Assembly (NCBI GenBank): GCA_919902495.1
Contig: CAKKRC010000001.1
Coordinates: 1 to 59,567, forward strand
From: Nitrospiria bacterium
GTDB taxonomy: Bacteria; Nitrospirota; UBA9217
Reading direction: 5' to 3'
Length of the DNA stretch: 59,567 nucleotides
A program made the position numbers and the translations under genes. Below the pieces are notes generated by a model that was not told the DNA's origin, searched no databases, and saw only the letters and a program-made list of their open reading frames with translations. Below are positions 15,515-45,408 of the stretch, one piece after another. Every line of letters starts with the position of its first letter. Within the stretch, counting starts at the first letter, position 1.

Positions 15515-15572
15515 GTATAAGAGGCCGGCATTGTTTTTGCTAAATTCGCTAAGACCGCAAATTCGTTCTTTC

Positions 15573-15590
15573 CTATCCAAATATGGATAG
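15573..15590. promoter_or_regulatory. Palindrome upstream of the accessory island
   Basis: CTATCC/GGATAG with a 6-nt A+T loop, about 30 nt before the first island gene and next to the A+T-rich ATATATACT, where a -10 box would sit. It is a possible operator; no cognate regulator gene is seen. Confidence 0.35.
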
Positions 15591-15621
15591 ATATATACTG
15601 GTTAGGTAAAGGAGAAATAAT

Positions 15622-16455
15622 ATGTTATGTCCGTTGACTGGGGAGCAAGAATGCAAGAAAAAAATTGAGCCAGATATTAAGCTATTTTTCTTTGGCTTCC
15701 CATATTTAGATTCATTTGAAGATGTTGAATTAACTGTAACTGAAACCATGAAAGAATTTGGTTTTATACCGTACACTGCAAGGGATGAAGTGTTTCTAAA
15801 ACATATCCTTTGCAAGGTGTGTAATAAAATGCAGGAAAGTAGCTTTGGTATCTTCGAATTGACGGATAGAAATCCAAACGTAATGTATGAACTTGGCATG
15901 ATGGGTGGGATGGGTAAGCATTTCGTAATTATCGCCAGAAAAGGTACAACTGTTCCGTCTGATCTGGGGGGTATCGAATTTATTGAGTACAAGAGTTGTC
16001 AGGATTTAAAGAAAAAATTGGTTCATATAAAGGATGCTTTCAAAAAGATTGCTGAACGAACTTTAAGAGATATACAAAATATACCTGTAGGCCGGAAAGC
16101 GGATTCGACAGCGACCTCCTTTTCTTTGCCAGATATACTTCCGTCTACAACTTATAACGTTGAAACTGGTTGCGGATCGCTACATATTAGTATTTCCAAA
16201 ATCGATGGTAAACCTGTTAAGGTTCACGCACAAATGTCTAAATCCGGCGGTTGTGCGGCTTCAATGACAGATGCGTTATCATCAATGGTATCGGCTGCTT
16301 TACAATATAACGTTCCGGTAGATATCATTATACAGGAATTAAAAGGTGTACGATGTCCTGCTCCTGCTTGGGGTGAGGGCGGTAGTATTTTATCTTGTGC
16401 TGATGCGATAGCTCGAAAACTAGAGTTGGATATCCGTAATTCAACCAAAGATTAG
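15622..16455 (+). CDS. TIR/deoxyribosyltransferase-like domain fused to a TSCPD domain
   Basis: 277 residues with two parts. Residues about 18-150 form a Rossmann-like TIR/NDT-type domain: KLFFFGFPYLD, then SSFGIFELTDRNPNVMYELG (Glu90 at the expected catalytic position), MGKHFVII and PSDLGGIEFIEY. Such domains bind or cleave nucleotides, often NAD. Residues about 168-270 closely match the TSCPD domain from the C-terminus of B12-dependent ribonucleotide reductase (NrdJ): VETGCGSLHISIS, SKSGGCAASMTDAL, LKGVRCPAPAWGEGG and SILSCADAIARKLE, with Cys184, 211, 245 and 259. There is no reductase barrel. GGAG lies 7 nt before the ATG. It is A+T-rich and next to other TIR-like and caspase genes, so an immune role is inferred. 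I know of no described protein with this fusion. Confidence 0.8.
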   Translation: MLCPLTGEQECKKKIEPDIKLFFFGFPYLDSFEDVELTVTETMKEFGFIPYTARDEVFLKHILCKVCNKMQESSFGIFELTDRNPNVMYELGMMGGMGKHFVIIARKGTTVPSDLGGIEFIEYKSCQDLKKKLVHIKDAFKKIAERTLRDIQNIPVGRKADSTATSFSLPDILPSTTYNVETGCGSLHISISKIDGKPVKVHAQMSKSGGCAASMTDALSSMVSAALQYNVPVDIIIQELKGVRCPAPAWGEGGSILSCADAIARKLELDIRNSTKD

Positions 16456-16564
16456 GATTTTTGAGATTAAAAGAAATATGAATCGGACAGCAGGTCTGTG
16501 TGATTGAGTTTTGCGATTTGCCTGCCCACCCTCTGTTTTGGTGCCGAACCATTTGGAGTTTCAA

Positions 16565-17293: not shown

Positions 17294-17312
17294 ATTAGTG
17301 GAGGTGCATCTC

Positions 17313-17702
17313 ATGGCAAAGAAAAGAGCATTCATAAGTTTTGATTTTGATCACGATGAAGACTTGAGAAACCTGCTCGTTGGGCAAGCACGCAATTCTG
17401 ACACACCATTCGACCTTGCTGATTGGTCGCTGAAAGATGCATTAAGCGGGAATTGGCGTGACAAGGTTCGGACGCGTATTCGCTCCTGCGATGTCGTTAT
17501 AGTTATATGCGGAGTATACACTAACAACGCAACAGGTGTGAGCGCTGAAGTCAACATCGCCCGCGAAGAGAGCATCCCGTACTTTCTGCTCTGGGGACGG
17601 AGCGATAAGAGTTGCACCAAACCCCTGGCGGCTCTTGAAACGGACAAAATCTACAAGTGGACATGGGATAATCTTAAGGCCCTAATCGGTGGTGCACGCT
17701 AA
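17313..17702 (+). CDS. ThsB-like TIR-domain protein
   Basis: 129 residues made almost entirely of an MTH538/ThsB-type TIR-like domain: KRAFISFDFDHDEDLRNLL, FDLADWSLKDAL, RIRSCDVVIVICGVYTNNA and GVSAEVNIAREESIPYFLLW. Glu79 in SAEV is the expected catalytic residue. In Thoeris defence, ThsB-type TIR proteins use NAD to make a cyclic signal when phage is sensed. The ATG at 17313 has GGAGG 8 nt upstream. Its stop codon overlaps the caspase-gene start by one base, so the pair is translationally coupled; the partner is the likely effector. Confidence 0.85.
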   Translation: MAKKRAFISFDFDHDEDLRNLLVGQARNSDTPFDLADWSLKDALSGNWRDKVRTRIRSCDVVIVICGVYTNNATGVSAEVNIAREESIPYFLLWGRSDKSCTKPLAALETDKIYKWTWDNLKALIGGAR

Positions 17703-18649
17703 TGCGAAGAGCACTCATTATTGGCATTGACGAGTACCCCGGCTGTCCACTTCAGGGCTGCGTCAGTGATGCCACTCGTCTCGCACAAGTACTTGGTCGT
17801 CATCACGACGGGCGCCTCAATTTTCAGTGTGATGTCCTAACAGCGCCGCCGCAGACCATTTCCAGATCCTTGCTGCGACGTAGAATTAGCGAATTATTTG
17901 AGCACCCGGCAGACCTTGCATTTCTTCACTTTTCTGGTCACGGTACGATAAATGGCCTAGGCGGTTTCTTGGTTACTCCTGACTACTCTGAGTATGATGT
18001 TGGGATTTCCATGTCAGAGGTACTTGCTTTAGCCAATCAGGCGCAGGTCGATGAAGTATTTATTACCCTTGATTGTTGCCATAGCGGCGCGTTTGGACTA
18101 GTGCCCGCAGTGAGCAATGACAAGGTCATACTTTCCGAAGGTGTTTCGGTTATTACCGCAACCAGAAAAGGCCAAGAGGCCTTAGAAGTCGGAGGCGGTG
18201 GAGTGTTCTCTTCGCTTCTTGTCGAAGCGCTCGAAGGTGGAGCGGCCGGCATTCTCGGTGAAGTATCCGCGGCAAGTGTGTATGCTTATATTGATAATGC
18301 TATGGGTGCATGGGATCAACGCCCACTGTTCAAGGCGAATGTAAATCGCTTCGCGCGTCTTCGTGATACACCTCCGAAGGTCGATCACACACTTCTAAGA
18401 AGATTGCCCTCGTTCTTTCCCCTGCCAGCAGAGGATCTTCCCTTGTCACCAGCATTTGAGCCTGAGATTGAACCCCATGATATTGAGAAGGAGGAAATCT
18501 TTCGGGGGCTCCTGAAGCTTCGTTACGCGGGGCTTGTAGAGCCTGTTGGCGCAGATCACATGTACCACGCCGCAGTACAAAGTAAGTCGTGCAGACTCAC
18601 ACGATTGGGTCGCTACTATTGGCGGTTGGTGAATGATAACAAAATATGA
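17702..18649 (+). CDS. Caspase-like (peptidase C14) protease, likely TIR-activated effector
   Basis: 315 residues. Residues 1-215 are a caspase-fold domain: RRALIIGIDEYPGCPLQGC at the start, the catalytic His80 in HFSGHG, and the catalytic Cys126 in LDCCHSG. Residues about 255-312 look like a small winged-helix domain (EEIFRGLLKLRYAGLVEPVG, then CRLTRLGRYYW), perhaps for sensing or dimerisation. The start overlaps the TIR gene stop. A TIR gene coupled to a caspase-like gene matches the layout I recall for type IV Thoeris, where the TIR-made signal turns on the protease. Catalytic residues are intact. System membership is inferred from context. Confidence 0.85.
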   Translation: MRRALIIGIDEYPGCPLQGCVSDATRLAQVLGRHHDGRLNFQCDVLTAPPQTISRSLLRRRISELFEHPADLAFLHFSGHGTINGLGGFLVTPDYSEYDVGISMSEVLALANQAQVDEVFITLDCCHSGAFGLVPAVSNDKVILSEGVSVITATRKGQEALEVGGGGVFSSLLVEALEGGAAGILGEVSAASVYAYIDNAMGAWDQRPLFKANVNRFARLRDTPPKVDHTLLRRLPSFFPLPAEDLPLSPAFEPEIEPHDIEKEEIFRGLLKLRYAGLVEPVGADHMYHAAVQSKSCRLTRLGRYYWRLVNDNKI

Positions 18650-18724
18650 TTAGCTAACAATCGGCGCCACTTTATTTATTGTCCGAGGCGAGGGATAGGC
18701 CGAGCAATAGCCGACAAGATAATT

Positions 18725-18772
18725 CTAACCTGCGGCTCGACCCGACGAAACGCGGGTCAGCCGCGCGTTAGC
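18725..18772 (+). other. attC-like recombination site closing the island
   Basis: The folded pattern of an integron attC site is present. Outer CTAAC (18725-18729) pairs with GTTAG (18767-18771), then an unpaired spacer, GCGGCT/AGCCGC, one extrahelical C (18738), GACCCG/CGGGTC, and an 8-nt loop. An alternative longer site would use GCTAAC at 18653-18658 with GTTAGC. It lies just after the caspase gene, in the expected orientation for plus-strand cassettes. No integrase is in the window. Confidence 0.55.
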
Positions 18773-18896
18773 CTTACACAATGCGTTGGGTTTTGCATGA
18801 ACCGTTCCGTTTGCACGGGGATGACGAAATCGAAACTGAAGATGTATCATCGACTGCCGACTGCACCATGACTATCGACTGCATCTCGACTGATCT

Positions 18897-24294: not shown

Positions 24295-24370
24295 GAAATA
24301 ACAGAAAAGTCTCCGGGGAATGCGCTCGTTCCTGGATTCACGGCCAATTTTACGATTGCTAATCACTTTA

Positions 24371-24402
24371 TATAGTGCTATATATAATGCTAAATAAAGC
24401 AT
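24371..24402. promoter_or_regulatory. Operator-like palindromes before the toxin-antitoxin pair
   Basis: TATAG/CTATA (24371-24382) and ATGCT/AGCAT (24387-24402) lie just upstream of an AGGAGG site, in the usual place for autoregulation by a Phd-type antitoxin. Confidence 0.5.
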
Positions 24403-24417
24403 CATAGGAGGTGCGAT

Positions 24418-25009: not shown

Positions 25010-25287
25010 ACAATCTATCGCTCGATCGGCCAGAACGGACGCTTCGCGAGAGGATGACCGATTGATACTTTTCGAAATCGGCAACGGACGCGGAAACCGC
25101 GGATGTGTGGCATTTCTTGTAGGGTAAGGCGGGGGGTATCCCGCTGAACAGGATTCGGCGATCAAAAAGAAACGATCAGTACGGAGGCTGAGCGCGGTTT
25201 CCTCAGATGCGATGAGAAAAATGGACCGTGCTATCGCGATAAACCTCGGCATGATCGAACCATAGAAAATACTGATTCTACAATCCG

Positions 25288-25938: not shown

Positions 25939-26384
25939 GGAGCGAGCCTCCTTTGGAGTATGAAGAGCAGTATGATGATCGCTGAAAATGACAGGAGCGA
26001 CAGCAGGGGGATGGACAGGAACCCGAACAGTTCAATGTACTTTTCCGTGCAGGAAACGCCCTCGCTGCAGGGCTGGAGGCTCTTCGGGATGACCCCCGAA
26101 TACAGCAGGGTGTGATACAGCGCGACCAGCCAGCCCGCGACCGCCAGGGGCAGGGAATATTTGATCACGCCCGCATCAAAGGAAAAGAGCCCGACGCCGA
26201 AGATGAGGACCAGGGGATAGACGCCTATCCGCTGATACCAGCAGAGCACGCAGGGCGCGAAACCCATGACCTCGCTGAAGAACAGGCTGCCCAGGGTCGA
26301 GACGCTGGCAATGAGCCAGCAGAGGAAAAGGAGCGTCCAGTTCACGTTCGCTGATCGTTCGGTACCGGTCGTTTCGGTCGTCAT
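25935..26384 (-). CDS. DsbB/BdbC-like disulfide bond membrane protein
   Basis: 149 residues with about four TM segments. The first cysteine pair is in FAPCVLCWYQRI and the second in LQPCSEGVSCTEKY, as in DsbB/BdbC, which pass electrons from DsbA to quinone. I chose the ATG at 26384 because AGGA lies five bases upstream and the preceding codons encode no family sequence. It is operonic with the DsbA-like gene. Confidence 0.9.
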   Translation of the reverse strand: MTTETTGTERSANVNWTLLFLCWLIASVSTLGSLFFSEVMGFAPCVLCWYQRIGVYPLVLIFGVGLFSFDAGVIKYSLPLAVAGWLVALYHTLLYSGVIPKSLQPCSEGVSCTEKYIELFGFLSIPLLSLLSFSAIIILLFILQRRLAP

Positions 26385-26700
26385 CGGATTCCTGCTCCAG
26401 TTCGCTGCGCACCGCTCGGGACAGTTGCAATGCCCATGACGTACACCCTTCATGATCATCGGCAACGTGGAAATATAACAAATTTGCATCTTGATAACAA
26501 CATCGAAATTCAGGTCCGGGTGAACAAGAACTTCCGAGTGTCCTGTCCGTTCAGCTGGTATTGCATTCCATGACGCGTGACAGGCTTTGCCGGGGCCAAT
26601 TAACCCGCTGATAGTACATGCAAAGTGCGGTTGCAATGCATTGGAGCATCTGCTAAACTACGGACGCTTTGAACGTCGGATGCCAGTGCGAGGGAAAATC
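26385..26700. other. Divergent spacer without recognised genes
   Basis: Separates the minus-strand dsb pair from the plus-strand lipoprotein gene. It should hold both promoters; I see a TGCTAAACT -10-like stretch near 26650 but no convincing -35, RNA gene or repeat. Confidence 0.45.
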
Positions 26701-28083
26701 ATGGTACATTCGTCCTGCATTATTAAAACGGCCCTTCTGTTTTCTCTGATGGTGAGTTTGCTGGGAGGGTGTGGGAACAAACGCGATTCGCTATCCCCGC
26801 AGCCTATCATCAATCAAAACCGGAACCCGGTTGCGAATGCAGGACCCAACCGGGTTGTTCTCGCCGGTGTGAATATCACACTGGAAGGCAGCGGCAGCTC
26901 TGATGCCGATGGCGATGCGCTTGCCTATTCCTGGTCGCTGATTCGGAAACCGGCGGGAAGCACTGCTGTGCTGTCAAATGCGACATCAGTCAACCCCTCA
27001 TTTACATCGGATAAGGATGGTCTGTTCGTGGCAGAGCTCATCGTCAGCGATGGTACGGGCAGCAGCGCCCCGGTAACCGTGACCATAACCCGGTCCTCGC
27101 CTTCCTGCAGTACTGATGATATTCTGAAGACACAGACAACAGGATCGATGATCGTAGGGCCTTCCGAGGACTTCATCCCGCTTTGTAACGGTGTTGTGCT
27201 CTTCGGCGATCGGGAACTGAATCAGATTAGATTATTGGACGTCGTATCGGGCGGTACGGGTACACCATTCCAGCTCACGGCTGCTCCAAAGGGGCTGGCG
27301 CTGGACCCGGACAATGACCTTCTCTACGCAGCTCATGCACCAGCCACCTTTCTCACCCGGATGGACCTCCTCTCCGGCGCGAAGAGCCAGATAACGCTCA
27401 GCAAGGGCGCCCTGAACCTTGCCGTAGTCGGCGGTGGAAGGGTCTTTGCGTCCCTTGATGAGAACGCATCGAATGATCACCCTCTCGCTCTTGTCAGCGG
27501 ATTGACGGGAACAGTGGAACAGGAGTACCCGGGTGATTGGGATCCTTATCCCGGTCACTATGGTCATCTACTGGCATATGACCCTGTACACGGTCAGCTG
27601 TTTTCAGCAAATTCCTACGACCTTGTTCGTTATAGTTTTGATCCTAACCTCAAGACGCTGACCCAGGTTGAATCACTGACAGGATATTGCTCGAATGGAG
27701 AGGACCTCGCGATTTCGCCCGATGGCGAGCATGTCGCTTACGCCTGCGGCGGAGGGAACGGGCCCGGCTACTCCATCTATGACTTCTCGTCCACTGCGAT
27801 GGGTTATATCTACGGCGCTTGGGAGACAGGCGCGTACCCGGCCTCTGTGGCTTTCGACCCAAGCGGCGCCTATGTCGCAGCGACGGACACTAATAATATC
27901 CTCATATTCGATACATCGACACATGTTCTGTTGCAGACCTATCCGGTTGATCTGAGCGACTGTTCTTCCCCGGGCCTTTCCAGGGTCCGATTCTCCCGCG
28001 GCGGTAACATTGTGTTTGCGTATGCGTTCTGCGGATTTTGGAGCAATTCCGGAAAGTTGTTCTGGGTTGTTCTGCAGCCGTAA
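26701..28083 (+). CDS. Lipoprotein with PKD-like domain and beta-propeller-like region
   Basis: 460 residues. The signal peptide ends in a lipobox (LLGGC, Cys24), so it should be lipid-anchored outside the cytoplasm. Residues 40-125 form a PKD/Ig-like domain (NPVANAGPNRVVLAG, SGSSDADGDALAYSW, GLFVAELIVSDG). The remainder has repeated beta-propeller-type motifs (KGLALDPDNDLLYAA, LAISPDGEHVAYACGG, ASVAFDPSGAYVAATD). Ligand and partners are unknown. The ATG at 26701 has GAGGG six bases upstream; longer frames add no signal sequence. Confidence 0.75.
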   Translation: MVHSSCIIKTALLFSLMVSLLGGCGNKRDSLSPQPIINQNRNPVANAGPNRVVLAGVNITLEGSGSSDADGDALAYSWSLIRKPAGSTAVLSNATSVNPSFTSDKDGLFVAELIVSDGTGSSAPVTVTITRSSPSCSTDDILKTQTTGSMIVGPSEDFIPLCNGVVLFGDRELNQIRLLDVVSGGTGTPFQLTAAPKGLALDPDNDLLYAAHAPATFLTRMDLLSGAKSQITLSKGALNLAVVGGGRVFASLDENASNDHPLALVSGLTGTVEQEYPGDWDPYPGHYGHLLAYDPVHGQLFSANSYDLVRYSFDPNLKTLTQVESLTGYCSNGEDLAISPDGEHVAYACGGGNGPGYSIYDFSSTAMGYIYGAWETGAYPASVAFDPSGAYVAATDTNNILIFDTSTHVLLQTYPVDLSDCSSPGLSRVRFSRGGNIVFAYAFCGFWSNSGKLFWVVLQP

Positions 28084-28235
28084 AAAAGCGTAAGCAGGAA
28101 CCTGAATGCCAGCATCCATTCTGGAACATCCCTATGATGGCCTGCAAAGCTGGATAATCTGTTTGGTTTGTTTGGTTTGTATGGAAGTGCTCTGAAGTCA
28201 TCGATTAAATCTCTGATAACGTTATAAATTCCCTG

Positions 28236-34579: not shown

Positions 34580-34593
34580 AGGCGGAGCTGGGG

Positions 34594-34646
34594 AGAACGT
34601 GGCGCTGACTCGCCGTACGGCGAGTCGATGTCGAGCGCCATGTTGG
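34594..34646 (-). other. attC-like site B
   Basis: AAC (34596-34598) faces GTT (34642-34644). GGCGCT/AGCGCC (34601-34606, 34634-34639) and GACTCGCC/GGCGAGTC (34607-34614, 34619-34626) form the stem, with a 7-nt bulge on one side and a GTAC loop. It directly follows the stop of the minus-strand gene at 34667, as expected for a cassette. Confidence 0.6.
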
Positions 34647-34666
34647 AATCACAGTTGTCGTCGCAC

Positions 34667-35548
34667 TCATGAAGCCTTCTTGACGAAGGCCGCCGTCCAG
34701 TCGGAATAATCTTTCTCATCGGGAAGTAGGTCAGCAGCAGGACCAAAGTCGACTTTGCTCACGATAGGCGCCTCATTCTTGAACATGTTCTTATATTCGT
34801 CGGCCAGGCGCTGTCCGTGCTCACTTAAGTCCTTACAAAGCAGATTGCTAAAGAATATCCCGTCATTAGTTTGGTTAGCAATTGCCTCAACTGAGCTAGG
34901 GTAGTCTAAGTTAACGTGGCCCTCACTATATGGAAGACCAAAGTACAGCTTTGGAAATTTAGGGTTCTTTTCAGCAGACTCAGTTTTATATTTCTCTATT
35001 AATGTGTTCCGCTTTTCGATTGAACCGTCAAGACATCGCGCTGTTTGAGCAAGCGTCATCACAAGATTCAAAGGGCGGCCAACTAGCGATAGGCGCTCAA
35101 ATATTACCTCTTGCAGAATATCAGTCGGAAGAGAAGTCAGTTGTAGCGTTTGGAGGTCCGCTTTAAAAGAAAACAGTTCTTCTTCGGGTACTTCCCCCTT
35201 TATAAATCTTTCGTAAAATGCCTGCGCCGCAGCCCTATCAGTATCATATTTAATTTTCAATTCTTTGACATATTGCTTTTTGAGAGACAGCAGAGAGTTG
35301 CAGATGCCGAAGGCGATCGCAATGGCGGCGTTAGTGTTCCGTATTTCGCGAAGCAATTCTTCGCGACGTTTACCACGCTCAACGATTCTCTGCGCTGCAT
35401 AAGCGCCAGCAAAGGCACCGGCAAGCGAACCAATTAGCGCTGTCGTAAACGCAGAATTGGCGAAATTCTTGAGTGTATCCCAGACCATTGAATTAGTTAT
35501 CGATGACCAAAAATGGCTGAGCGACTGTGCTAATTCGCTTTTAGACAA
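34667..35548 (-). CDS. Cassette gene: membrane-associated protein of unknown function
   Basis: 293 residues, not recognised. Residues about 30-52 (SAFTTALIGSLAGAFAGAYAAQRIV) are a TM or glycine-zipper segment; the rest is charged and helical (RREELLREIRNTNAAIAI, LIEKYKTESAEKN). It starts with TTG, with GGAGG four bases upstream. Base composition is A+T-richer than flanking chromosomal genes, and it lies between attC-like sites B and C, so it is probably a mobile cassette gene. Confidence 0.65.
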   Translation of the reverse strand: MSKSELAQSLSHFWSSITNSMVWDTLKNFANSAFTTALIGSLAGAFAGAYAAQRIVERGKRREELLREIRNTNAAIAIAFGICNSLLSLKKQYVKELKIKYDTDRAAAQAFYERFIKGEVPEEELFSFKADLQTLQLTSLPTDILQEVIFERLSLVGRPLNLVMTLAQTARCLDGSIEKRNTLIEKYKTESAEKNPKFPKLYFGLPYSEGHVNLDYPSSVEAIANQTNDGIFFSNLLCKDLSEHGQRLADEYKNMFKNEAPIVSKVDFGPAADLLPDEKDYSDWTAAFVKKAS

Positions 35549-35602
35549 GTGGCCTCCAATATTGTTTATGAGCAGGCATAGTCAGTCCAGTCTTACTTAC
35601 TA

Positions 35603-35656
35603 CTAACGCGCACCTGCCGCGCCGACTTTGGCGCGTCGCAGTCGAGGCGCTGGTTA
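35603..35656 (-). other. attC-like site C
   Basis: TAAC (35604-35607) pairs with GTTA (35653-35656), then GCGC/GCGC, TGC/GCA and CGCGCC/GGCGCG (35618-35635) with a 6-nt loop and several one-sided bulges. It sits between two minus-strand cassette genes. Confidence 0.6.
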
Positions 35657-35821
35657 ATTAACGATGTTCTGTTCGTCTACTTTCCTTTTGGCCTCCAACT
35701 TACGCTTTCTATATATGTCTAGGAGTGGCTTAAAGGGCAATAAAAAAAATATGACAACCTGCCCCACGGAAAGCAACAACGCGGGCAGTACTATGGAGTC
35801 ACGGAACCAACCTTGCCTTCT

Positions 35822-35960
35822 TGCTTTGAACTTGCAATTCCCTGTAGCTCGCTACAGGGTCACCTTGTAGAGGGAAGAGTTTGAGAAACCGCAGGTTGCT
35901 CAAATGATAATAGTCTTCCCTGTTATAGATACCACGCAGCTTGCTGCGTGGAGGTTCATT
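35822..35960. repeat. Multi-hairpin palindromic element
   Basis: Contains CCTGTAG/CTACAGG (35841-35858), a nested structure AGGGAAGA/TCTTCCCT enclosing TTGAG/CTCAA (35871-35921), and CCACGCAGC/GCTGCGTGG (35932-35951). It resembles the non-coding palindromic elements mobilised by Y1 HUH transposases, but no transposase is nearby. It overlaps the 3' end of the cassette gene at 35900-36310. Confidence 0.6.
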
Positions 35961-36310
35961 TTATATATTCTGCGCTCTCTAACAGTTGCGTGGGAAACCA
36001 TTTTTAGCTTTGGCCCGATATCCTCGTTTGGCAATATAAAATAATATCCACCGTACTTTAATTCGTAACGGTCAGATGCGGGAACAAACTTTCTTTCAAA
36101 CTCTTTATACTTTTCTGGTTTACAGTGAAAACGACTGCCTTCTTTGACTTGATCCTTGGCTTGATCATACAGAGCAACAAGAATTATGCCCTCTGGGATG
36201 ATGCACTCAAACGATCCGGTACAGGGTGCAGCCCATGCAGTTAAGCCAGTAGTTTTAATATTCTGGGTGGTAATAAACCGATCGCCATTAAGAACAGATT
36301 CGATGCTCAT
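35900..36310 (-). CDS. Cassette gene of unknown function, 3' end replaced by a palindromic element
   Basis: 136 residues, not recognised. It starts MSIESVLNGDRFITTQNI and has a compact alpha/beta look (ECIIPEGIILVALYDQAKD, YELKYGGYYFILPNEDIGP). The last ~16 codons after RERRIYKM are read through the palindromic element at 35822-35960, so the native C-terminus is probably lost. It lies between attC-like sites C and D on the same strand. AAGGATGG precedes the ATG. Confidence 0.55.
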   Translation of the reverse strand: MSIESVLNGDRFITTQNIKTTGLTAWAAPCTGSFECIIPEGIILVALYDQAKDQVKEGSRFHCKPEKYKEFERKFVPASDRYELKYGGYYFILPNEDIGPKLKMVSHATVRERRIYKMNLHAASCVVSITGKTIII

Positions 36311-36335
36311 GTTTTTCCATCCTTACGATTTTCGG

Positions 36336-36386
36336 ATTAACGCGCGCGTGTACCGCCGCGAAGCGGTCGGACACGACGCGCTGGTT
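36336..36386 (-). other. attC-like site D
   Basis: AAC (36339-36341) faces GTT (36384-36386). The stem has GCGCG/CGCGC, CGTGT/ACACG with one extrahelical A (36376), and ACCGC/GCGGT with a CGG bulge and a 6-nt loop. The one-sided extra bases are typical of attC. It lies between two minus-strand cassette genes. Confidence 0.65.
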
Positions 36387-36404
36387 GTGATTGATGCCTT
36401 TCCG

Positions 36405-37517
36405 TTAAAAAAGTATATCCTGCTCGTCAGAATCACTCACGGAATAGTTTGTGGATGTTTCTATCGAGGCCTCTTTACGGCGCTTTATTGTTTCGATAAG
36501 CGTAGAAATCTGAGAGCCCTTAAGATCAGGTTCGTTAAACATCTCGGCAGCTCCGTCAAACATGTGGATGAAGTTTTTATTGGTTAAAATTTGTCTTAGA
36601 TGGCTGGCTATGTCACTTTTAATCGTTTCATCTGATCGGAATGAGTAGTTGAATAACCCCGCTATGATATCTGAAACCTGCACACCATAATGTTCGACTG
36701 AGTTTACAGCAGAAACTGTGGATACGGAAAAATCGCCTGTTAATGTGCAGACATCAGATATCCGGAAGGTTTCTCCGAGGTTTGAAATATTGCCAATAAA
36801 AGAAGCCAAACCGTGAGTGCTTGTTGCCTTTGTAAAATCGTAGATAACTTTGGCGCTATTTATACCGAAGCAACTTCTCAAATGGATTATTAGGCCTGTT
36901 AATATTGCTTCGTAAAAACCGGGGTTATACGGCTGTGCAGTTATCTTTATATACGCAAGCTGCGGCTTATGAAGAAATGGACTGAGAAGCTCTGCTGCTT
37001 TTTCATGTTCTAAAGTTTGCATGCAATGCTGCCACAGTTTTTGTAATGCATCTTCATCTCGTCTTCGGATCAGATAATTATAATGACGAAGGAAAGCATC
37101 ATACCATTCTAAACCCATAGTAGCCGGTAGATAATAGGCTAGCTGATTAACATAAATCAGAACCACGCCATCTTTAAATAAGTTTACTCCATCAAGGGTT
37201 AGAGCCGGCAGAATGCAATCGTCCACAAATTTACGGGTCAGAGCGCTACGTTTATCAACAAGGTAACAACAGAATTTGTCATCTTTGCTTTCTAGATAAT
37301 CTATGAAGGCATGTAATTTTTTTTGCCCACTGCTCCGCCCCAATAACCGAGAAAACTTTAGCTCTGATCCTTTATCACCGCAAAATACCGTTGATGATAA
37401 ATTATTCAATTCATCATGGGATAGCATGTTACAAGCTAATGAGAACAATGGTTGATCTGGGTTGACAAAGTCGACACCCGTGTAACCGCTCTCGTCTATG
37501 TAAATATCGTAATCCAT
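36405..37517 (-). CDS. DUF3800-domain protein
   Basis: 370 residues. The N-terminus MDYDIYIDESGYTG has the conserved DES motif of DUF3800, an RNase H-like fold family found often in mobile and defence islands; nuclease activity is suggested by fold only. VEHYGVQVSDIIAGLFNYSF near residue 290 carries the C-terminal Asp expected for the site. I start at the ATG at 37517, since the ten extra codons upstream are not conserved-looking. A+T-rich, first of the three minus-strand cassette genes, followed by attC-like site D. Confidence 0.82.
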   Translation of the reverse strand: MDYDIYIDESGYTGVDFVNPDQPLFSLACNMLSHDELNNLSSTVFCGDKGSELKFSRLLGRSSGQKKLHAFIDYLESKDDKFCCYLVDKRSALTRKFVDDCILPALTLDGVNLFKDGVVLIYVNQLAYYLPATMGLEWYDAFLRHYNYLIRRRDEDALQKLWQHCMQTLEHEKAAELLSPFLHKPQLAYIKITAQPYNPGFYEAILTGLIIHLRSCFGINSAKVIYDFTKATSTHGLASFIGNISNLGETFRISDVCTLTGDFSVSTVSAVNSVEHYGVQVSDIIAGLFNYSFRSDETIKSDIASHLRQILTNKNFIHMFDGAAEMFNEPDLKGSQISTLIETIKRRKEASIETSTNYSVSDSDEQDILF

Positions 37518-37862
37518 CAAGTAATAAAAACACGCGCTCCAATACAATGTTTAGGCTTCTTTCTGAACGCATTATTCAGAAAGAAGCTGGTTGGACTAAG
37601 CCGTTGTGCGCCACGACGCTATGGGATTTCAAAAGATTTATCAGTTTAAAGCGAAGATCGCAGAGACGGCATTGGCAGGGGCGTGAGACTTGTTCGATTG
37701 AAAAGCGGCGATTCCGGACTGTGCCGCAAGCCCCTTTCGCCCTTTCGAAAACGACTATACAGGAAAAAGGGCTTCCGGGCAATAGGGTATCGTTTCGAAA
37801 AACAGGGCTGTTTTCGGAGAAGGATGACCGGGTGAGGTTGTTCATTCCAGCGCTTGCGGTAG
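37518..37862. other. Spacer with a 13-bp perfect hairpin
   Basis: GCTTCTTTCTGAA (37555-37567) and its inverse (37575-37587) form a 13-bp stem with a 7-nt loop, followed by CTGGTTGG, which resembles one half of the attC-like sites. It could be a degenerate attC, a terminator or an IS91-type terminus. The remaining 275 nt toward the transposase hold no credible gene. Confidence 0.45.
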
Positions 37863-38786
37863 TCATATTCGCGGTGGTCCTTTGCAGCGCGCGGGCCGCA
37901 TGATCTCGGTCGTGCGCATCGTGCGTTCACCGCAGGCAGGGCATTTGGCGACATCGATGCCGGCGATTCTGAACAAGGTTTCTTGCCATGTTTCGGTCTT
38001 CTGTTCCGCCTTGTTCTGCCCGGTGCAGGATAGAAGTACCCTGCACTGGTCAAGTTTCTTCCTGCGGCACCTGTTGCCCAACAGGCCATAATGCCTGATT
38101 TTCACAAATCGGTCAGGCAGCACGTGAAGCAGGAACCGCCGGATAAACTCGTCGGCGTAAACGGTCATGATCTTGCTCTTGTTGTTATCGGCATAATACC
38201 GCCATCGGAACGAGACCTTGTCGGCCTCCGTCTTCACGATCCGATGGTTGCTGATCGCGATCCGGTGGGTGTATCTTCCGAGATATTCAAGAACGCCTTT
38301 ACTCCCGTCGAACGGCGGCTTGCAGTAGACAACCCACTTCTTTTTGTATAGATCGGAGATCAGGGCACCCCACGCCGCAGGCTGCGCGAGATGACTTACC
38401 GCGCCGGGGTAAACGAGTTTGTTCTCGGCACGGAGTTTTCGCAGATAGGCAAGGAACTTCCCCCGAAAGAGCTTCGACATTACTTTGACCGGGAGGAAGA
38501 AGTCATTCTTGCACGCCTTCCATTTCCGTCCGTCACGGGACAACCCCCCGCCCGTGACGATGTTGTGGATATGAGGATGGTCCATGAGATTCTGTCCCCA
38601 GGTGTGCAGGATCGAGATAAACCCGATGTCCGCGCCAAGATGCTTCCGGGTTTCCGCGAGCTGGGCCAGGGTTTCTGAAACGGACTTGAACAGGATGCCG
38701 TAGAGGACTTCCTGATTCCGGAGCACAAGAGGGTTGAGAAGATCGGGGAAGGTGACAAAAAGCCCGCTGGACTTCTGATGGCACGG
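37863..38786 (-). pseudogene. IS91-family (HUH Y2) transposase, 5'-truncated
   Basis: The frame is open from 38786 to a stop at 37863 and matches the IS91 transposase core: FVTFPDLLNPLVLRNQEVLY, the HUH motif HPHIHNIVTGGGLS, GVLEYLGRYTHRIAISNH and FVKIRHYGLLGNR, ending in a Cys-containing tail (CPACGER). The N-terminal zinc-binding region expected before FVTFPDLLNPL is absent: an in-frame stop lies 28 codons before VLR. The element is therefore probably dead. IS91-type elements move by rolling-circle transposition and can mobilise neighbouring DNA, here the cassette run. Confidence 0.85.
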
Positions 38787-38868: not shown

Positions 38869-39396
38869 CTACTTCCCGCCGAGCACCCTTATCAGTTCCT
38901 GCCCGAACTGCTTCGCCGCTTCCGGACCTGTGGCGGTCACCACCGTGCCGTCAACGACCACTGGCTTGCTCGTCACAACCGCTCCTTGAGACTTGAGTAT
39001 CGCCACGGAAGAGGGGAATGCCGTAGCTTTCTTTCCTTTCAGCACGCCCGCGTTTGCCAGCGTCGCAGGTGCGATGCAGATGGCCGAGGTGAGCTTGCCG
39101 TGTTCGAAGAACGCCTTCGCCAGGGCGTGCGCGACGGGACTGTCGAAATACTCCTTTGCTCCGCCTCCGCCGACGAAGACGATGCCGTCAAAGTCCTCTT
39201 CCTTCACATTCCCGATCAGTACATCAGGCTTCACCTTGAGCCCCAGCATACCTTCAGACATGTTCAAGGATGACGATGCCACGGTTATGACCGCGCCGGC
39301 GTCTTCCAGGGCCTTCCTGGGTTCGAGATACTCCTCGTCCCGGAACTTGTTCTTCGCGATGATCATCAGGATTATTTTGCCTGTAAGATCCTTCAT
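38869..39396 (-). CDS. DJ-1/PfpI-family protein
   Basis: 175 residues. The DJ-1 fold is clear: IILMIIAKNKFRDEEYLEPR, DFDGIVFVGGGGAKEYFD and TSAICIAPATLANAG, where the Cys is the nucleophile-elbow residue. Members act as chaperones, glyoxalases or proteases; the Glu in FRDEEY fits the usual Cys-activating residue. The ATG at 39396 follows AGGAG by eight bases. It has its own terminator and faces away from the multicopper oxidase genes. Confidence 0.9.
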   Translation of the reverse strand: MKDLTGKIILMIIAKNKFRDEEYLEPRKALEDAGAVITVASSSLNMSEGMLGLKVKPDVLIGNVKEEDFDGIVFVGGGGAKEYFDSPVAHALAKAFFEHGKLTSAICIAPATLANAGVLKGKKATAFPSSVAILKSQGAVVTSKPVVVDGTVVTATGPEAAKQFGQELIRVLGGK

Positions 39397-40216
39397 GACA
39401 TAGGCTCCTCTGATGAAATAGATGAATATAGTACAAGGCTATCAAAAGGCTGGTGCAAATGCAAGGTTTCGTTACCCGCTGTTCGTTCCCATAACGGATG
39501 CAAGTCCACAGTTCACGTCTATAATCGGTCTTTAGCTGTCGATCGAACGGCAAATTGTGCTCAGCCATAAAATAATAGACGAAAAAAGACAACAGTATGT
39601 CCCGGGAAATGAAAGAAAGTGTATCGAGTTCGCGCAGCTATTTCGCAAACGCAGACTGTTATCGTTATTCTGATGCATGTTAGGGCAGTATTAACATCGT
39701 GAACAGGCGAGAGCCCTCACACCAAAGGGCATGCCACGATGCACTTGCTTGCAATAATAATCATGGTAATTTCACATCTGATTCCTTGACAAAAGTCATT
39801 CTAACTTACTAAATAAAGACATCACCGGAAAAGCTGCAGGTCATTGTGCTCTCTGTCCGCCATGCAAATAATGAAAGACAGTATAAAATGTGCAGGAAAT
39901 GGTGATAAAGACATCCAGATGGCAGGGACGCGCCGCCTGGGTCGACAAAGCTGATGATCGATAAGAAATGATACCGGCATTTTCAAGTTCATATATTTTG
40001 TTCCATTACCATAAAGGAGGCGATGTTTATGACCTGACTGAAAAGCGTTGTTTATCAAAGTTTAATCAGTATCAAACCTACGTGTGCAAGGGGATCAACA
40101 CAGTATTATTGTGGTTTTAAAATTGGTTGATGACAACACCGGGAGGGGATGGGAGCTTATCCAAATAGAAAAGGTCACCTTAGGCTTTCTCAAGGTAAAA
40201 ATGGAGGATACCAGTC
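39397..40216. other. 820-nt spacer with promoter and long leader before multicopper oxidase 1
   Basis: A TTGACA (39786-39791) and TAAATA (39810-39815) pair is separated by 18 nt and points to the oxidase gene, which would give a leader of about 400 nt. Inside it, AAGGAGG at 40014-40020 is followed by a four-codon frame (ATG TTT ATG ACC, stop; 40023-40037). No longer conserved reading frame, RNA gene or repeat is recognisable. Confidence 0.5.
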
Positions 40217-42463
40217 ATGAACACTAAAAAAACAATCCTGCTCGTATTACTTGCCGCAGCATTTATCGTTGCGTATTCGCCGGGGACAGGACTTGCAGTT
40301 CAGGGCACCCCCCTACCAGGCAACAAGATCGCCCAGTTCATTGATCCGCTGCCGGTGCTCAATGTTGCGCCCGGCGGTACCATGGAAACCGTTATTGCCG
40401 GCACCGGCGAGATCACGCTGAACATGCTGGAGTTCCGGTCTAAAATCCTGCCGTCCACCTTCGTTCCGGCAAATGGTCTGCCGTATACGGGCACCTGGGT
40501 CTTCGGCTACCGTCTCGGCCCGACATCTGCGCCGGCAGCTGCGGTCGACACCTACGTCGGTCCTGTTATCGTTGCGACACGTAACGTCCCCACCCAGATC
40601 AGGTATGTCAACAATCTCACCGCAAACAACATCGCCTGGAGAGATTGGACTGACCAGAGCCTGCACTCGGCATTTCACCAGGCAGTTGGCCAGCCGATGC
40701 CGATGGTCGGCGATATGATGCACTACATGGGTCCCGTTCTCGCTGTTCCGCATCTGCATGGCGGTGAAGACCCGGCCATCATCGATGGAGGCCCTGAGGC
40801 CTGGTTCGCGAGCAACGTGCCGGGGCCGGACACCATGACCACCTATCTCCCCCATGGTCCCGCCTACTATGCCGGGGTAGACGTGGCCGGTGCCGGTGCC
40901 AATCCGCCTGCGCTTAACGAAGCCATCTACCGCTATCCTAACACCCAGGAGGCGGCGCCGCTCTGGTTCCACGATCATCTGCTCGGCGGCACCCGGCTCA
41001 ACGCGACCTTTGCAGGCCTTGCAGGCGCCTATCCTCTTATTGACCCGAGCCTCAGCTTGCCAGCCGGCCTGGACCCTGTTGGATTGGGGGGCAGGCACCT
41101 GGTTCCCCTGGTCATTCAGGACCGCATGTTCGATACCAACGGCCAACTCTTCTTCCCCAATATCGGCATCAACCCGGAGCATCCGTACTGGGTACCGGAG
41201 TTCGTTGGTAACGCCATCGTGGTGAACGGCAAGGCCTGGCCCTATCTGAACGTTGACCGGCAGCGCTATCGCTTCTTCCTCATCAACGGCTCCAATTCCC
41301 GGCCCTATGACATGTTCCTGCAGGACCAGACCACCGGGATCAAGGGCCCGCGCATGTGGGTGATCGCCACGGACGGCGGCTATTTGGACGCGCCGGTCCT
41401 TATCGACCCGAACGCCACAGGGGCACAGACAAAGGCAGGCGTACAGAAGAAACTGATGATGATGCCGGGCGAGCGGTACGAGATGATCATGGACTTCGCC
41501 GATCCTGTGTGGCTCAATGCCATAACCGCGGCCTACACGGCAATGGGAATGGCGGTTCCGAAACCCATTAACCTCATCCTGCGCAACACTGCACCTACGG
41601 TCAATGGCAACCCCAATACAAAGACCGAAGGCCGGATCATGCAGTTCCGCGTCTCGGCCAATGCGCCTGTCGACACCAGCTATAATCCGGACCCGGCACA
41701 ACCAGGTGGTGGTCTGCCACTGAGACCGGCAATGGTACGTCTGGCAGACCCCGTCCTGGGTACGCTTGCTGCCGGCGTAACCCCCAACCTAACCCGCGAG
41801 TTTACCCTCAATGAGGTTCCCGGCCTCGGCGGACCGCTTGAAGCCTTGGTCAACAACTCCAAGTGGAACGGGCTGCGCTCGGACGGCACGACCTCGATAC
41901 CGGGTTCAACCTACGTGCTCGGCAATTACCTTACGGAGCTGCCCGTCGAGGGTCAGACCGAGGTCTGGGAGATTATCAACACGACCATGGATTCGCACCC
42001 CATACACCTGCACGGCCTGCAGTTCCAGCTCATAAACCGGCAGGCGTTTGACATGGCGGCCTTTATGATGGCCTACAACGCTGCCTTCCCGGGTGGCGTT
42101 TACATCCCGGGCTACGGACCGCCGCTCGACTACTTTACGGGCAACCCGAGAGCTCTGGGCGGCAACCCCGACCCAGCGCTGTTAGGAGCAGCTCTGCCTC
42201 CATTGTCCTTTGAGGCTGGCTGGAAGGATACGGTCATTATGCACCCCGGAGAGGTAACGCGCATCGCGGTACGCATCGCGCCCCAGGATAAGGCTATCGG
42301 CGCTGCCGATCTCTTCTGGAGCTACGCGCCCAACGCGTTGAATGGCGCGTATGTCTGGCATTGCCACATCACCGACCATGAGGACAACGAGATGATGCGG
42401 CCCATCCAGTTCCTGCCGAACGAGACCGTTATCAGGACATACGTCCAGGGAGTCGACTACTGA
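40217..42463 (+). CDS. Exported multicopper oxidase (CotA/bilirubin-oxidase-like)
   Basis: 748 residues with a Sec signal peptide (hydrophobic 6-22). All four copper-binding segments are visible: PHLHGGEDP, LWFHDHLLGG, HPIHLHGLQFQL and YVWHCHITDHEDNEMM; the last holds the type 1 Cys and an axial Met. It couples oxidation of a metal or organic substrate to reduction of oxygen to water in the periplasm. At 748 residues it is longer than CotA (about 510), with long Pro/Ala-rich loops. GGAGG lies 9 nt before the ATG. A strong terminator follows. Confidence 0.92.
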   Translation: MNTKKTILLVLLAAAFIVAYSPGTGLAVQGTPLPGNKIAQFIDPLPVLNVAPGGTMETVIAGTGEITLNMLEFRSKILPSTFVPANGLPYTGTWVFGYRLGPTSAPAAAVDTYVGPVIVATRNVPTQIRYVNNLTANNIAWRDWTDQSLHSAFHQAVGQPMPMVGDMMHYMGPVLAVPHLHGGEDPAIIDGGPEAWFASNVPGPDTMTTYLPHGPAYYAGVDVAGAGANPPALNEAIYRYPNTQEAAPLWFHDHLLGGTRLNATFAGLAGAYPLIDPSLSLPAGLDPVGLGGRHLVPLVIQDRMFDTNGQLFFPNIGINPEHPYWVPEFVGNAIVVNGKAWPYLNVDRQRYRFFLINGSNSRPYDMFLQDQTTGIKGPRMWVIATDGGYLDAPVLIDPNATGAQTKAGVQKKLMMMPGERYEMIMDFADPVWLNAITAAYTAMGMAVPKPINLILRNTAPTVNGNPNTKTEGRIMQFRVSANAPVDTSYNPDPAQPGGGLPLRPAMVRLADPVLGTLAAGVTPNLTREFTLNEVPGLGGPLEALVNNSKWNGLRSDGTTSIPGSTYVLGNYLTELPVEGQTEVWEIINTTMDSHPIHLHGLQFQLINRQAFDMAAFMMAYNAAFPGGVYIPGYGPPLDYFTGNPRALGGNPDPALLGAALPPLSFEAGWKDTVIMHPGEVTRIAVRIAPQDKAIGAADLFWSYAPNALNGAYVWHCHITDHEDNEMMRPIQFLPNETVIRTYVQGVDY

Positions 42464-42483
42464 GACGGCAAAAGATTCGACAA

Positions 42484-42512
42484 GGGCCGCCGAACGGCGG
42501 CCCCTTTTTTTT
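42484..42512 (+). terminator. Rho-independent terminator after multicopper oxidase 1
   Basis: GGGCCGCC/GGCGGCCC with a GAAC loop (42484-42503), then C and eight T. Confidence 0.92.
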
Positions 42513-42563
42513 AAGATCTATGCAGATGAGAACAAGAGGTAATAGAAAGGTATCAAAAAAGAC

Positions 42564-42962
42564 ATGAAGTGCTCCATTTCGGTCATTCTTGGCGTAATAT
42601 TGATTTGTTCTGTCGGTTTTGCCGGTGAGAAGGGCCGCATCGAGAAAAACAAGCCGGCAATTGCTGAAGAAGCCGGGGCCATCGCGGGAGCTCCCGCAGC
42701 ATTACGCCTCAAGATCGTCCGGAATGGATTTCAATTGAGCTGGACGTTGTCTCCTCATGATCCCGGAACAGTGACAGGATATGAAATTGTCCGTTCAGAT
42801 AGGTTCAGCGGCCCCTATGGTCCCGTTGCTATGGTGGAGAAGGGAACGCCTCAATAAGTTGATGTGACGGCATTACCGGACATTATTTGTTTTTTCAAAG
42901 GAAGAGCGGTTGCCGGTAAGGTTTATTCGCCATTTTCAAACACGGTCACCGGAGAAAGATAA
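42564..42962 (+). pseudogene. Exported fibronectin-III-like protein interrupted by a stop codon
   Basis: A signal peptide (MKCSISVILGVILICSVGFA) leads to a single FN3-like domain: GFQLSWTLSPHDPGTVTGYE, IVRSDRFSGPYG. TAA at 42855-42857 interrupts it after KGTPQ. Without any frame change the following codons continue the same domain (VDVTALPD, FFKGRAVAGKVYSPFSNTVT) to a stop at 42960-42962, 133 codons in total. It looks like a recent nonsense mutation, though a base-call error is possible. It lies between the two multicopper oxidase genes. Confidence 0.75.
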
Positions 42963-43007
42963 TTTTCGGGTCGAACTATCGTGGTTAGAGCGAAAGGAGG
43001 CATCGTC

Positions 43008-44540
43008 ATGAAAAAGCTCACCAGACGGGAGTTCCTGAAGCGCATATCGCTCGGCGCGGCGGGCGGCTATCTTGCCCTGAAGGCGCCGCCGTCGTACGCC
43101 CGGATGGTGGGCGGCGGAGGAGGCGGCATGGGCGGGGGAGGGATGGGCGGGACCACGACCACGAGCGTCATCGATCCGCCGCCGGGCGCTGCCTTCGCTG
43201 ACCCCGCGGAGATGCGGAACTTCAGCTCCGTGCCCGGCATCGTTGAAGTGGACCTGCAGGCAAGGCCGGCGTGGGTCAACATCAACGGCACCCTGGCGAA
43301 CCTCATGACGTACAACGGCGCCTATCCCGCGCCGACGATCCGCGTGAAGCAGGGGGACGTCCTGAAGGTCCATTTCAATAACTCCTTGCCCATGATGGGC
43401 AAGAACATCCTGGATCACGAGCGCGAAATGACGAATCTGCATACCCACGGCCTTCATGTTTCACCGTCCGGAAACGCGGACAACTCCATGCTTATGTTCA
43501 TGTCCGGCGATACCTTTGATTATGAGTTCGACCTGATGCATCAATACCCCGGTACGCTCAATTTTTACCATCCGCACCATCACGGCACGGTTGCCGAGCA
43601 GTACTGGGGAGGGATGGCGGGCGCGCTCATCGTGGACGACGACATCTCCGCTCTTTCCGGTTACGAAACGCACCTCCTTATCCTCAAGGACATCACCCTG
43701 AGCGGATCAGCGCCCGAGCCGTATACCTCGATGATGGATTATATGCACGGCAAGGAAGGCGACATCGTCATGGTGAACGGGCAGGTGAATCCGTTACTGC
43801 CAATAAGGCCGGGCCAGGTGCAGCGCTGGAGGGTCCTGAACGCGAGCAACGCCCGTTTCTACAAACTGAGCCTGGAAGGCCATGCCCTTCAGATCATCGG
43901 GACCGAAGGCGGGCTCCTGAAAAATCCCTATCCCGTATCGTCCATCCTGCTCTCACCCGGCGAGCGTCTGGACATCCTCGTGAAGGCGAGCCAGACAAAA
44001 AAGAACTATAGGCTCCTCTCGCTCCCGTACAGCCGCCAGGGAAATATGGGTGGTCAGCAGGTGACGCTCATGACCCTGAGCAATACAGGTTCTCCGGTCA
44101 ATGACGCCATCCCTTCGCTCATCAACCCCGAGTCTGTGCGCATCCGCCCGCAGATCGCGAAGACCGAGCGGATGACGCTGTCCATGGGACAGGGCAAAGG
44201 GTATATCAACGGCATCTCCTTTACCATGGAAAATTACTATGCTATCCAATCCCATCTGGGGACGTACGAGGTCTGGGAAATCGTGAACCAGAGCGGTATG
44301 GACCACCCGTTCCATCAGCACGTGAACCCGTGTCAGGTTCTGTCCATTACCGGCGGCGACGCGTCCTACGCGTCGTTTTTGACCAAGGCGCCGGCATGGA
44401 AGGACGTGGTGATCGTGCCGAAATGGGGGAGCGTGAAGATGCTCGTTCCGGTCATGGATTATCCCGGAATGGCCATGTTCCACTGCCACATCATTGAGCA
44501 CGAGGACATCGGCATGATGGGAGTCTGGGACATCATGTGA
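43008..44540 (+). CDS. Tat-exported multicopper oxidase
   Basis: 510 residues with a Tat-type signal (TRREFLKRISLG) followed by a Gly/Met-rich stretch (MVGGGGGGMGGGGMGG). The copper sites are complete: TNLHTHGLHVS, YHPHHHGTVAEQYW, HPFHQHVNP and MFHCHIIEHEDIGMM. It is probably a copper or metal oxidase that folds with its cofactor before export, distinct in size and route from the oxidase at 40217. AAAGGAGG lies seven bases before the ATG. A terminator follows at 44628. Confidence 0.93.
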   Translation: MKKLTRREFLKRISLGAAGGYLALKAPPSYARMVGGGGGGMGGGGMGGTTTTSVIDPPPGAAFADPAEMRNFSSVPGIVEVDLQARPAWVNINGTLANLMTYNGAYPAPTIRVKQGDVLKVHFNNSLPMMGKNILDHEREMTNLHTHGLHVSPSGNADNSMLMFMSGDTFDYEFDLMHQYPGTLNFYHPHHHGTVAEQYWGGMAGALIVDDDISALSGYETHLLILKDITLSGSAPEPYTSMMDYMHGKEGDIVMVNGQVNPLLPIRPGQVQRWRVLNASNARFYKLSLEGHALQIIGTEGGLLKNPYPVSSILLSPGERLDILVKASQTKKNYRLLSLPYSRQGNMGGQQVTLMTLSNTGSPVNDAIPSLINPESVRIRPQIAKTERMTLSMGQGKGYINGISFTMENYYAIQSHLGTYEVWEIVNQSGMDHPFHQHVNPCQVLSITGGDASYASFLTKAPAWKDVVIVPKWGSVKMLVPVMDYPGMAMFHCHIIEHEDIGMMGVWDIM

Positions 44541-44627
44541 CGCTCCTGTTGCGTCTGCGTTATCGCGCGGATCGACCGGCCGCGAACAAACTATCACGAA
44601 AGAGACAACAATTCAGCGCAATTCAAG

Positions 44628-44652
44628 AGAGCGGAAGACCGCTCTTTTTTTG
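44628..44652 (+). terminator. Rho-independent terminator after multicopper oxidase 2
   Basis: AGAGCGG/CCGCTCT with a 4-nt loop (44628-44645), followed by seven or more T. Confidence 0.85.
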
Positions 44653-44790
44653 CCTCTGCAGGACGTATTGTGCGTACTCGATGTGCTCCTGTCGACCGGC
44701 CCTTATGACGGATAGTCGGAACCCTGTCCACGGGAGAAAGAAACTCGCTGAACCGTTTCACCAACGGCATGACGCTCAAGGCAGGCCTAT

Positions 44791-44819
44791 TTGCTCCTGA
44801 TGCGGCTTTGTGCTATTAT
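44791..44819 (+). promoter_or_regulatory. Sigma-70-like promoter of the first nosL gene
   Basis: TTGCTC (44791-44796) and TATTAT (44814-44819) are separated by 17 nt, about 74 nt before the start codon. Confidence 0.5.
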
Positions 44820-44892
44820 GAAACATTGCACCAGGAGGGTATCTCATCGTCCATTTTGGAGAAACAACATTCGACAGCAGGAGGGATTTGCC

Positions 44893-45408
44893 ATGAGAAG
44901 AGCAGGAATCATAACGGTACTGATGCTGTTTATTGCCACATTGACCGTCTTTGCCCAGGGCGACGATATCAAACTGTCGCCTTCGTGCAAATATTGCGGC
45001 ATGGACCGGGAGAAGTTCGGCCACAGCAGGATGCTTGTCGAATACGATGACGGTACGTCCGTAGGCACCTGCAGCATCCACTGCGTTGCCGTGGAGCTGG
45101 CCTTGTCCATTGACAAGACTCCGAAAGCGCTCATGGTCGGCGATGTTCTGACGAAAAGACTTATTGATGCTGAAAAATCGGTGTGGGTCATCGGTGGAAG
45201 CAAAATGGGTGTCATGACCAGCCGGCCTAAATGGGCATTTGAAAAAAAGGAAGATGCAGACAAGTTTATCAAGGAGAACGGTGGGGCGCTCTCGTCCTTC
45301 GATGAGGCGATAAAATTGGCCTATGAGGACATGTATCAGGACACGAAGATGATCCGGGAACGGAGAGCGATGAAGAAAAAGACCGGCATGGAGCACATGC
45401 ACAAGTAA
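44893..45408 (+). CDS. NosL-family protein 1
   Basis: 171 residues with a signal peptide (7-20). The NosL-type metal motif SCKYCGM is followed by EYDDGTSVGTCSIHC and AEKSVWVIGGSKMGVMTSRP. NosL binds Cu(I) and helps copper delivery to nitrous-oxide reductase, but no nosZ is here, so copper supply to the multicopper oxidases or another enzyme is a guess. AGGAGG lies eight bases before the ATG. A Met/His-rich tail (MEHMHK) could also bind copper. Confidence 0.85.
   Translation: MRRAGIITVLMLFIATLTVFAQGDDIKLSPSCKYCGMDREKFGHSRMLVEYDDGTSVGTCSIHCVAVELALSIDKTPKALMVGDVLTKRLIDAEKSVWVIGGSKMGVMTSRPKWAFEKKEDADKFIKENGGALSSFDEAIKLAYEDMYQDTKMIRERRAMKKKTGMEHMHK

Follow-up and report, generated by a model that had tools for sequence, protein, structure and literature searches.

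Dispersed attI-type elements and integron cassettes in a Nitrospirota genome: a candidate distributed integron

The window considered here is the whole stretch of DNA analysed, 59,567 nucleotides in length, which is contig C1 of a metagenome-assembled genome (MAG) of a Nitrospirota bacterium (3.67 Mb, 110 contigs, 97% complete). It carries four attC sites, three of which belong to a cassette array at 34.6–37.5 kb and one of which closes a cassette that begins at an 85-bp attI-type element, hereafter called the dock. From the arrangement of such elements, the bacterium seems to spread cassette docks over many chromosomal places, with the gene of the recombination enzyme at just a couple. It is probable that these docks, served by integrase in trans, make up an integron scattered through the chromosome, and that the three-cassette array of the window is part of it. 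A fuller proposal, to which about even chances are given, is a distributed integron in which one or two loci encode the recombinase, about a dozen attI docks are maintained at fixed chromosomal places beside ordinary genes, and cassettes, including likely phage-defence genes, would be swapped in trans; integrase-less arrays and single attC sites would then be live docking bays and not debris.

In the usual picture of an integron, one platform has one integrase, one attI site and one array of cassettes. Clusters of attC sites lacking integron integrases (CALINs) are defined as at least two attC sites, the default threshold, with no intI nearby (PMC9024848). In the same source, CALINs are proposed to be degraded integrons, single attC sites go unreported by default, and CALINs are already recorded in one Nitrospira genome. 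CALIN cassettes have also been noted as usable in trans, in an article that mentions Nitrospirota attC sequences (PMC9668308). CALINs occur at fixed loci in Xanthomonas (PMC12444791), and the Shewanella prophage M16-3 contains one CALIN with its own attI (PMC9892861). Furthermore, sites termed attG are neither attC nor attI according to the descriptions in PMC12444791 and PMC12690207.

Cassette sites and the docked cassette of the window

A covariance model of attC (R1) was built from 19 attC-like hairpins located beside integron integrase genes in the genome of the window (G000) and its relatives, with the window sites excluded. The 19 were chosen by judgement among 40 listed hairpins, the rest of which lay away from integrase arrays or looked coding-like; R1 is our own model, not that of IntegronFinder, and its E-values are based on a shortened calibration. 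In the window, R1 reported exactly four sites, on the predicted strands, at 33–50 bits (E 8.5e-7 to 1.1e-11), and the fifth-ranked match reached just 14.5 bits (E 0.18). An earlier note on this DNA had listed four attC-like hairpins; all are present, at 33.1–50.3 bits, the list was complete and held no false positives by R1, and the sub-threshold covariance scores at all four sites that the note had named as refuting did not occur with this model. The folded sites have the outer AAC/GTT core and the L-box layout of attC and score like known attC sites. In all four cases the strand agrees with that of the genes, the plus-strand site lying 3′ of plus-strand genes and the three minus-strand sites 3′ of minus-strand genes.

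As a positive control, the class 1 integron dfrA12–orfF–aadA2 of an E. coli plasmid (L315) gave two of its three expected attC sites under R1, at 38.0 and 23.0 bits. As a negative control, 14 Nitrospirota genomes outside the family, with no integrase above the cut-off, were searched: at E 0.01, R1 matched nothing in ten of them and 2 to 4 sites in each of the remaining four. Neither Rfam, at its gathering thresholds, nor ARAGORN gave a match in the window. A scan for AAC...GTT hairpins by folding only recovered the sites plus many intragenic hairpins, and energy alone was therefore not taken as evidence. Judged by sequence and predicted fold, the window hairpins are genuine integron cassette (attC) sites, for which bottom-strand recombination by the integrase IntI is predicted.

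The site that the earlier note placed at 18725 is not a stray one: it closes the cassette begun at the attI-type element and is one of many in the genome. The docked cassette (15606–18722, approximately 3.1 kb, four genes; Table 1) starts exactly at the dock, which itself begins 6 bp past the stop codon of UDG, and ends at this attC. Its third and fourth genes adjoin one another in the TIR-caspase arrangement of defence genes, and we take the pair of a ThsB-type TIR gene and a caspase-like gene to resemble TIR-caspase (type IV Thoeris) defence, in which a signal made by the TIR protein would switch on the protease and so halt the phage. The pair looks like a phage-defence pair inside an integron cassette, as far as its domains tell. 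A scan of the dock for a consensus promoter found nothing.

Comparison of the UDG–mutS locus with that of a sister species (G001) revealed the same flanks and the same dock element around different cassettes, each ending in a different attC. The left flank is common to the two up to ...TATATACTGGTTAG, the sequences part right after GTTAG, and the right flank resumes at GTTAGyCTTACACAATGCG in both; the insertion point G|TT lies directly ahead of the first cassette, as in an attI site. Yet another attC is located just before mutS in a third genome, G002, and in five other genomes of the family UDG and mutS are just approximately 100–430 bp apart.

Distribution of the dock and of attC sites

The dock was recognized as a recurring element because the left flank at UDG–mutS recurs before the first cassettes at other dispersed loci of G000 and G001. 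In the complete integron on contig C15 of G000 it stands where attI belongs, with the intI promoter on one side and the first cassette on the other, and it is also found beside intI on C81 of G002; in these two cases it heads an array next to intI, and the window copy has no intI. In the alignment of docks, six of the ten predicted pairs change on both sides with pairing kept. A covariance model of the dock (R2) was made from nine copies, with the window copy and its ortholog L167 held out; from 13 motif matches, three without leader context and L130, a repeat of L254, were left out, and the L009 copy was added by eye. After the dock at UDG–mutS, the second R2 match in the window has just E 1.2. 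There are 14 copies in G000 and 11 in G001, and copies occur in 12 of the 14 genomes of the family, with a single match (E 0.011) in 104 Nitrospirota genomes outside it.

The order and orientation of docks with respect to attC are regular. All 14 docks of G000 have a downstream R1 match on the same strand, and one of the 14 lies beside intI. Among 37 fetched docks with at least 450 bp downstream (L297, a repeat of L230, being left out), a same-strand attC match was found within 3.3 kb for 33, an opposite-strand match for none and an upstream match for one. At ten attC clusters of G000, nine of them without intI, the dock precedes the first cassette. A second attI type, located beside the C12 integrase, was sought in 80 loci, and its three matches all lie beside integrase genes, with none dispersed. 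Leaders at places shared by G000 and G001 are sometimes of different hairpin types, and the docks themselves therefore turn over. On contig C73 of G001 (L245:8544-8762), two tandem docks, 133 bp apart, stand ahead of one cassette.

The genome-wide R1 search scores the 150 best candidates, and its attC counts are thus lower bounds; one training attC was absent from this search and was found by direct search. In G000 it gave at least 31 attC sites at E 0.01 and at least 33 at E 0.03, spread over many contigs. When matches were grouped manually by approximately 4 kb, these fell into at least about 26 clusters, 24 without intI and two with it (C12 and C15). All 14 genomes of the family have R1 matches, from at least 1 to at least 38 each. 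Furthermore, among the matches listed, 13 of the 26 clusters of G000 have flanking DNA in common with attC-bearing loci of G001.

Integrases, proposed mechanism and alternatives

The earlier note had found no integrase and had proposed a search for one elsewhere in the genome. The absence holds for the window and not for the genome: two integrases score above the curated TIGR02249 cut-off, at 383.8 bits on C12 and 362 bits on C15, and TIGR02249 matches in G000 are limited to contigs C12, C15, C72 and C73, with none on C1. On C12 and C15, intI is adjacent to attI and cassettes, and no such complete integron is present in the window. Both proteins align in full length with the Vibrio IntI4 structure 2a3v (E 4e-76 for C12 and 3e-73 for C15), through the region between the catalytic halves, and contain the HxxR, GH and IYTH motifs. 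They are long, at approximately 477 residues, of which approximately 160 N-terminal residues are unassigned by Pfam (L007:14638-15126, L009:14440-14934); the long form also occurs in several relatives. An integron integrase above the cut-off was found in 9 of 41 genomes (G000 and 40 relatives). The intI promoter region contains a conserved palindrome-like GTGAACGTTCGTTCAC, upstream of intI or of its stub (L009, L123, L130 and L134; similar in L236 and L299), which is possibly an operator. In addition, in G009 (L303:551-1678) a dock element directly precedes a tyrosine recombinase gene that is approximately 32% identical to integron integrases.

In the proposed mechanism, the C12 integrase, the C15 integrase or both would very probably serve, in trans, the attC sites of the approximately 24 other places. 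Many of these places have an attI-type dock of their own immediately ahead of the first cassette, an element of 85 bp with a G|TTR core and a covarying hairpin; UDG–mutS, with its dock, one TIR/caspase-like cassette and its attC, is one such unit. Some docks come from deletion: upstream of those on C2 of G001 and C66 of G003, a correctly oriented C-terminal stub of IntI is preserved, of 23 and 17 residues respectively and at equal distance from the dock, and after it comes a promoter region closely resembling the one in the complete C15 integron. At least these two docks of relatives are therefore integrons that lost intI, and we infer that most docks came about in this way and not by copying. 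The sequences themselves show the attC sites, the integrases, the dock copies with their regular placement relative to attC, and the cassette differences between sister species at UDG–mutS; we infer that IntI recombines the dispersed sites in trans and that the 85-bp element is an attI in function. A dispersed-attI integron is well supported in its anatomy, and functional recombination is predicted.

Several points weigh against this proposal. Two of the 14 downstream attC matches in G000 are weak, at 13.5 and 14.4 bits, four of the 37 fetched docks have no downstream attC match, and the count of 37 is partly biased, many of the loci having been fetched for their attC; among loci fetched for the dock alone, a downstream match was found in 12 of the 16 usable. 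By R2, approximately 15 of the 26 clusters have no dock, and none was found for the three-cassette array in the window search. In this fragmented assembly, a contig end is no more than 2 kb away from at least six clusters, some of which may be cut arrays; one of the six, on C75, corresponds to an intI locus of G001. Finally, a convincing intI remnant is missing upstream of 36 of the 38 docks examined.

One alternative, which is possible although doubtful, is that many complete integrons each lost intI and that the leftover docks and cassettes are inactive debris. The two docks that follow an IntI stub and intI promoter region, and the weak, possibly decayed attC sites after several docks, would suit inactive debris. 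However, the different cassettes within identical UDG–mutS flanks of two species require site-specific gain or loss after the split, the docks are still recognizable when the upstream DNA of most is not, and IntI is intact by alignment in G000.

It is unlikely that the scatter instead reflects minimal secondary sites (attG), with chance GTT-type targets receiving cassettes that left the main integrons; clusters lacking intI would then need no dock. Loot et al. (2024), as described in citing papers, report attG integration in E. coli, and the clusters without an R2 dock, the 34.6–37.5 kb array among them, fit such an origin; a recent insertion would also predict the missing attC at the place of this array in G001 and G002. 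However, at ten clusters of G000, nine of them without intI, the first cassette follows an element that agrees over 85 bp with attI from a complete integron, an extent well beyond that of a minimal core, and for 13 of 26 the corresponding place in G001 also bears attC. The dock of the window is likewise not a minimal core unrelated to attI, being an 85-bp match to R2.

Finally, that the window hairpins are chance structures or another G+C-rich repeat and not attC is highly improbable: the textbook attC core is GTTRRRY and individual sites agree with it just partly, whereas the four R1 matches, the class 1 control, the 10 of 14 empty control genomes and the agreement of all four strands argue for attC.

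The proposed dispersed integron shares features with several known systems. Like CALINs, the three-cassette array has tandem attC sites, co-oriented cassettes and no intI in the window, and the docked cassette ends in a single attC without intI; CALINs are defined without attI, whereas an attI-type element stands at the head of the single-attC unit and of other dispersed units in the genome. The attC type, dock element and cassette order are those of the C15 integron, as in a sedentary chromosomal integron, whereas the window loci have no intI and the genome has many docks instead of one. The CALIN of Shewanella M16-3 (PMC9892861) is also an intI-less array headed by the attI of the complete integron of the cell, in one copy in one prophage compared with 14 chromosomal copies in G000 and occurrence in 12 of 14 genomes of the family. 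Cassettes inserted at attG, in the descriptions available, similarly lie outside the integron platform at many loci, whereas docks have 85 bp and a hairpin in common with the attI of a complete integron. In Xanthomonas, intI-less arrays occupy the same chromosomal loci in several species; the accessible part of that report (PMC12444791) gives no attI and has seven loci across the genus, compared with approximately 24 in G000. In the literature searched, the coverage of which excludes most subscription journals, we found no account of a genome with many attI docks.

The shared attI-type element, the places common to species and the swapped cassettes at one locus make possible a direct test of whether intI-less arrays are live docks. 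Furthermore, comparative covariance search is shown to be a way of locating attI where the sequence it has in a lineage is unknown, and a TIR-caspase gene pair is placed within integron cassette traffic.

The three-cassette array and neighbouring features

The earlier note had described the array at 34.6–37.5 kb (sites B, C and D) as CALIN-type, and this category was borne out: there are three attC sites by R1 at 34592–36390, above the threshold of two, and no integron integrase gene nearby. Assignment of sites B, C and D to a three-cassette integrase-less array is supported under the published definition (PMC9024848). The cassette DNA (34649–37548) has a G+C content of 43.5%, and the flanking genes have 61.0% and 57.8%. 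The cassettes sit between an FAD gene and a DJ-1 family gene; among named matches, those nearest to the flanking FAD protein come from Nitrospirae MAGs, with DeMMO3_8 first at 89%, and agreement in coordinates and identities indicates that DeMMO3_8 is the genome G001. The same place in G001 and G002 spans approximately 0.8 kb and has no attC. For genes B and C, searches of Pfam, PADLOC and NCBIfam gave no convincing relatives, and no publication linking DUF3800, the family of gene D, with an integron was found in the literature searched.

Table 1. Positions of the docked cassette, the three-cassette array and the adjacent IS91-family element in the window
Feature	Coordinates	Strand	Evidence
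attI-type dock, 85-bp element with hairpin, terminal core G|TTAG	15521..15605	+	R2 (window copy held out) 78.3 bits, E 2.4e-14
TIR-like + TSCPD domain gene	15622..16455	+	Pfam PF10137, PF12637
Gene of unassigned family, 260 aa	16511..17293	+	No Pfam or NCBIfam match
ThsB-type TIR gene (ThsB_TIR)	17298..17702	+	Pfam PF08937, E 1.3e-6
Caspase-like gene (Peptidase_C14)	17702..18649	+	Pfam PF00656, E 6.9e-16; PADLOC caspase, E 2.6e-19; SGHG and DCCHSG motifs
attC closing the docked cassette	18723..18773	+	R1 37.8 bits, E 4e-8; right flank common with G001 from GTTAG on
attC site B	34592..34648	-	R1 40.0 bits, E 9.4e-9; downstream end of CALIN
Cassette gene B	34667..35548	-	Open reading frame of 293 aa; no Pfam, PADLOC or NCBIfam match
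attC site C	35601..35659	-	R1 50.3 bits, E 1.1e-11
Cassette gene C	35900..36310	-	Open reading frame of 136 aa; no Pfam or PADLOC match, one sub-threshold NCBIfam match
attC site D	36335..36390	-	R1 33.1 bits, E 8.5e-7
Cassette gene D	36405..37517	-	DUF3800 protein, Pfam PF12686, E 3.4e-9
IS91-family element, from its near edge to the end of its transposase gene	37549..38726	-	Edge at 37549, Y2 transposase gene 37863–38726; NCBIfam NF033538, 313 bits; upstream end of CALIN

The edge of the IS91-family element lies approximately 30 bp ahead of the start codon of gene D, and a second copy, on contig C60 (L220, ~5994), shares this edge and lies at a similar distance from where a different cassette gene starts. 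On these two cases only, the element may prefer the recombination core. At this array, replacement of a dock by IS91 and entry of the cassettes at an attG site are both compatible with the arrangement. A palindrome at approximately 37549–37596 was considered as a fourth attC of the array and rejected, its R1 score being 9.6 bits and its sequence being that of the edge of the second IS91 copy. At the downstream end of cassette C (35840–35960) there are two short palindromes, CCCTGTAGCTCGCTACAGGG and CCACGCAGCTTGCTGCGTGG. Elsewhere in the window, the multicopper oxidase region (39361–44921) and a 3.9-kb block (24297–28227) have no counterpart in the otherwise collinear sister genome G001 (L013).

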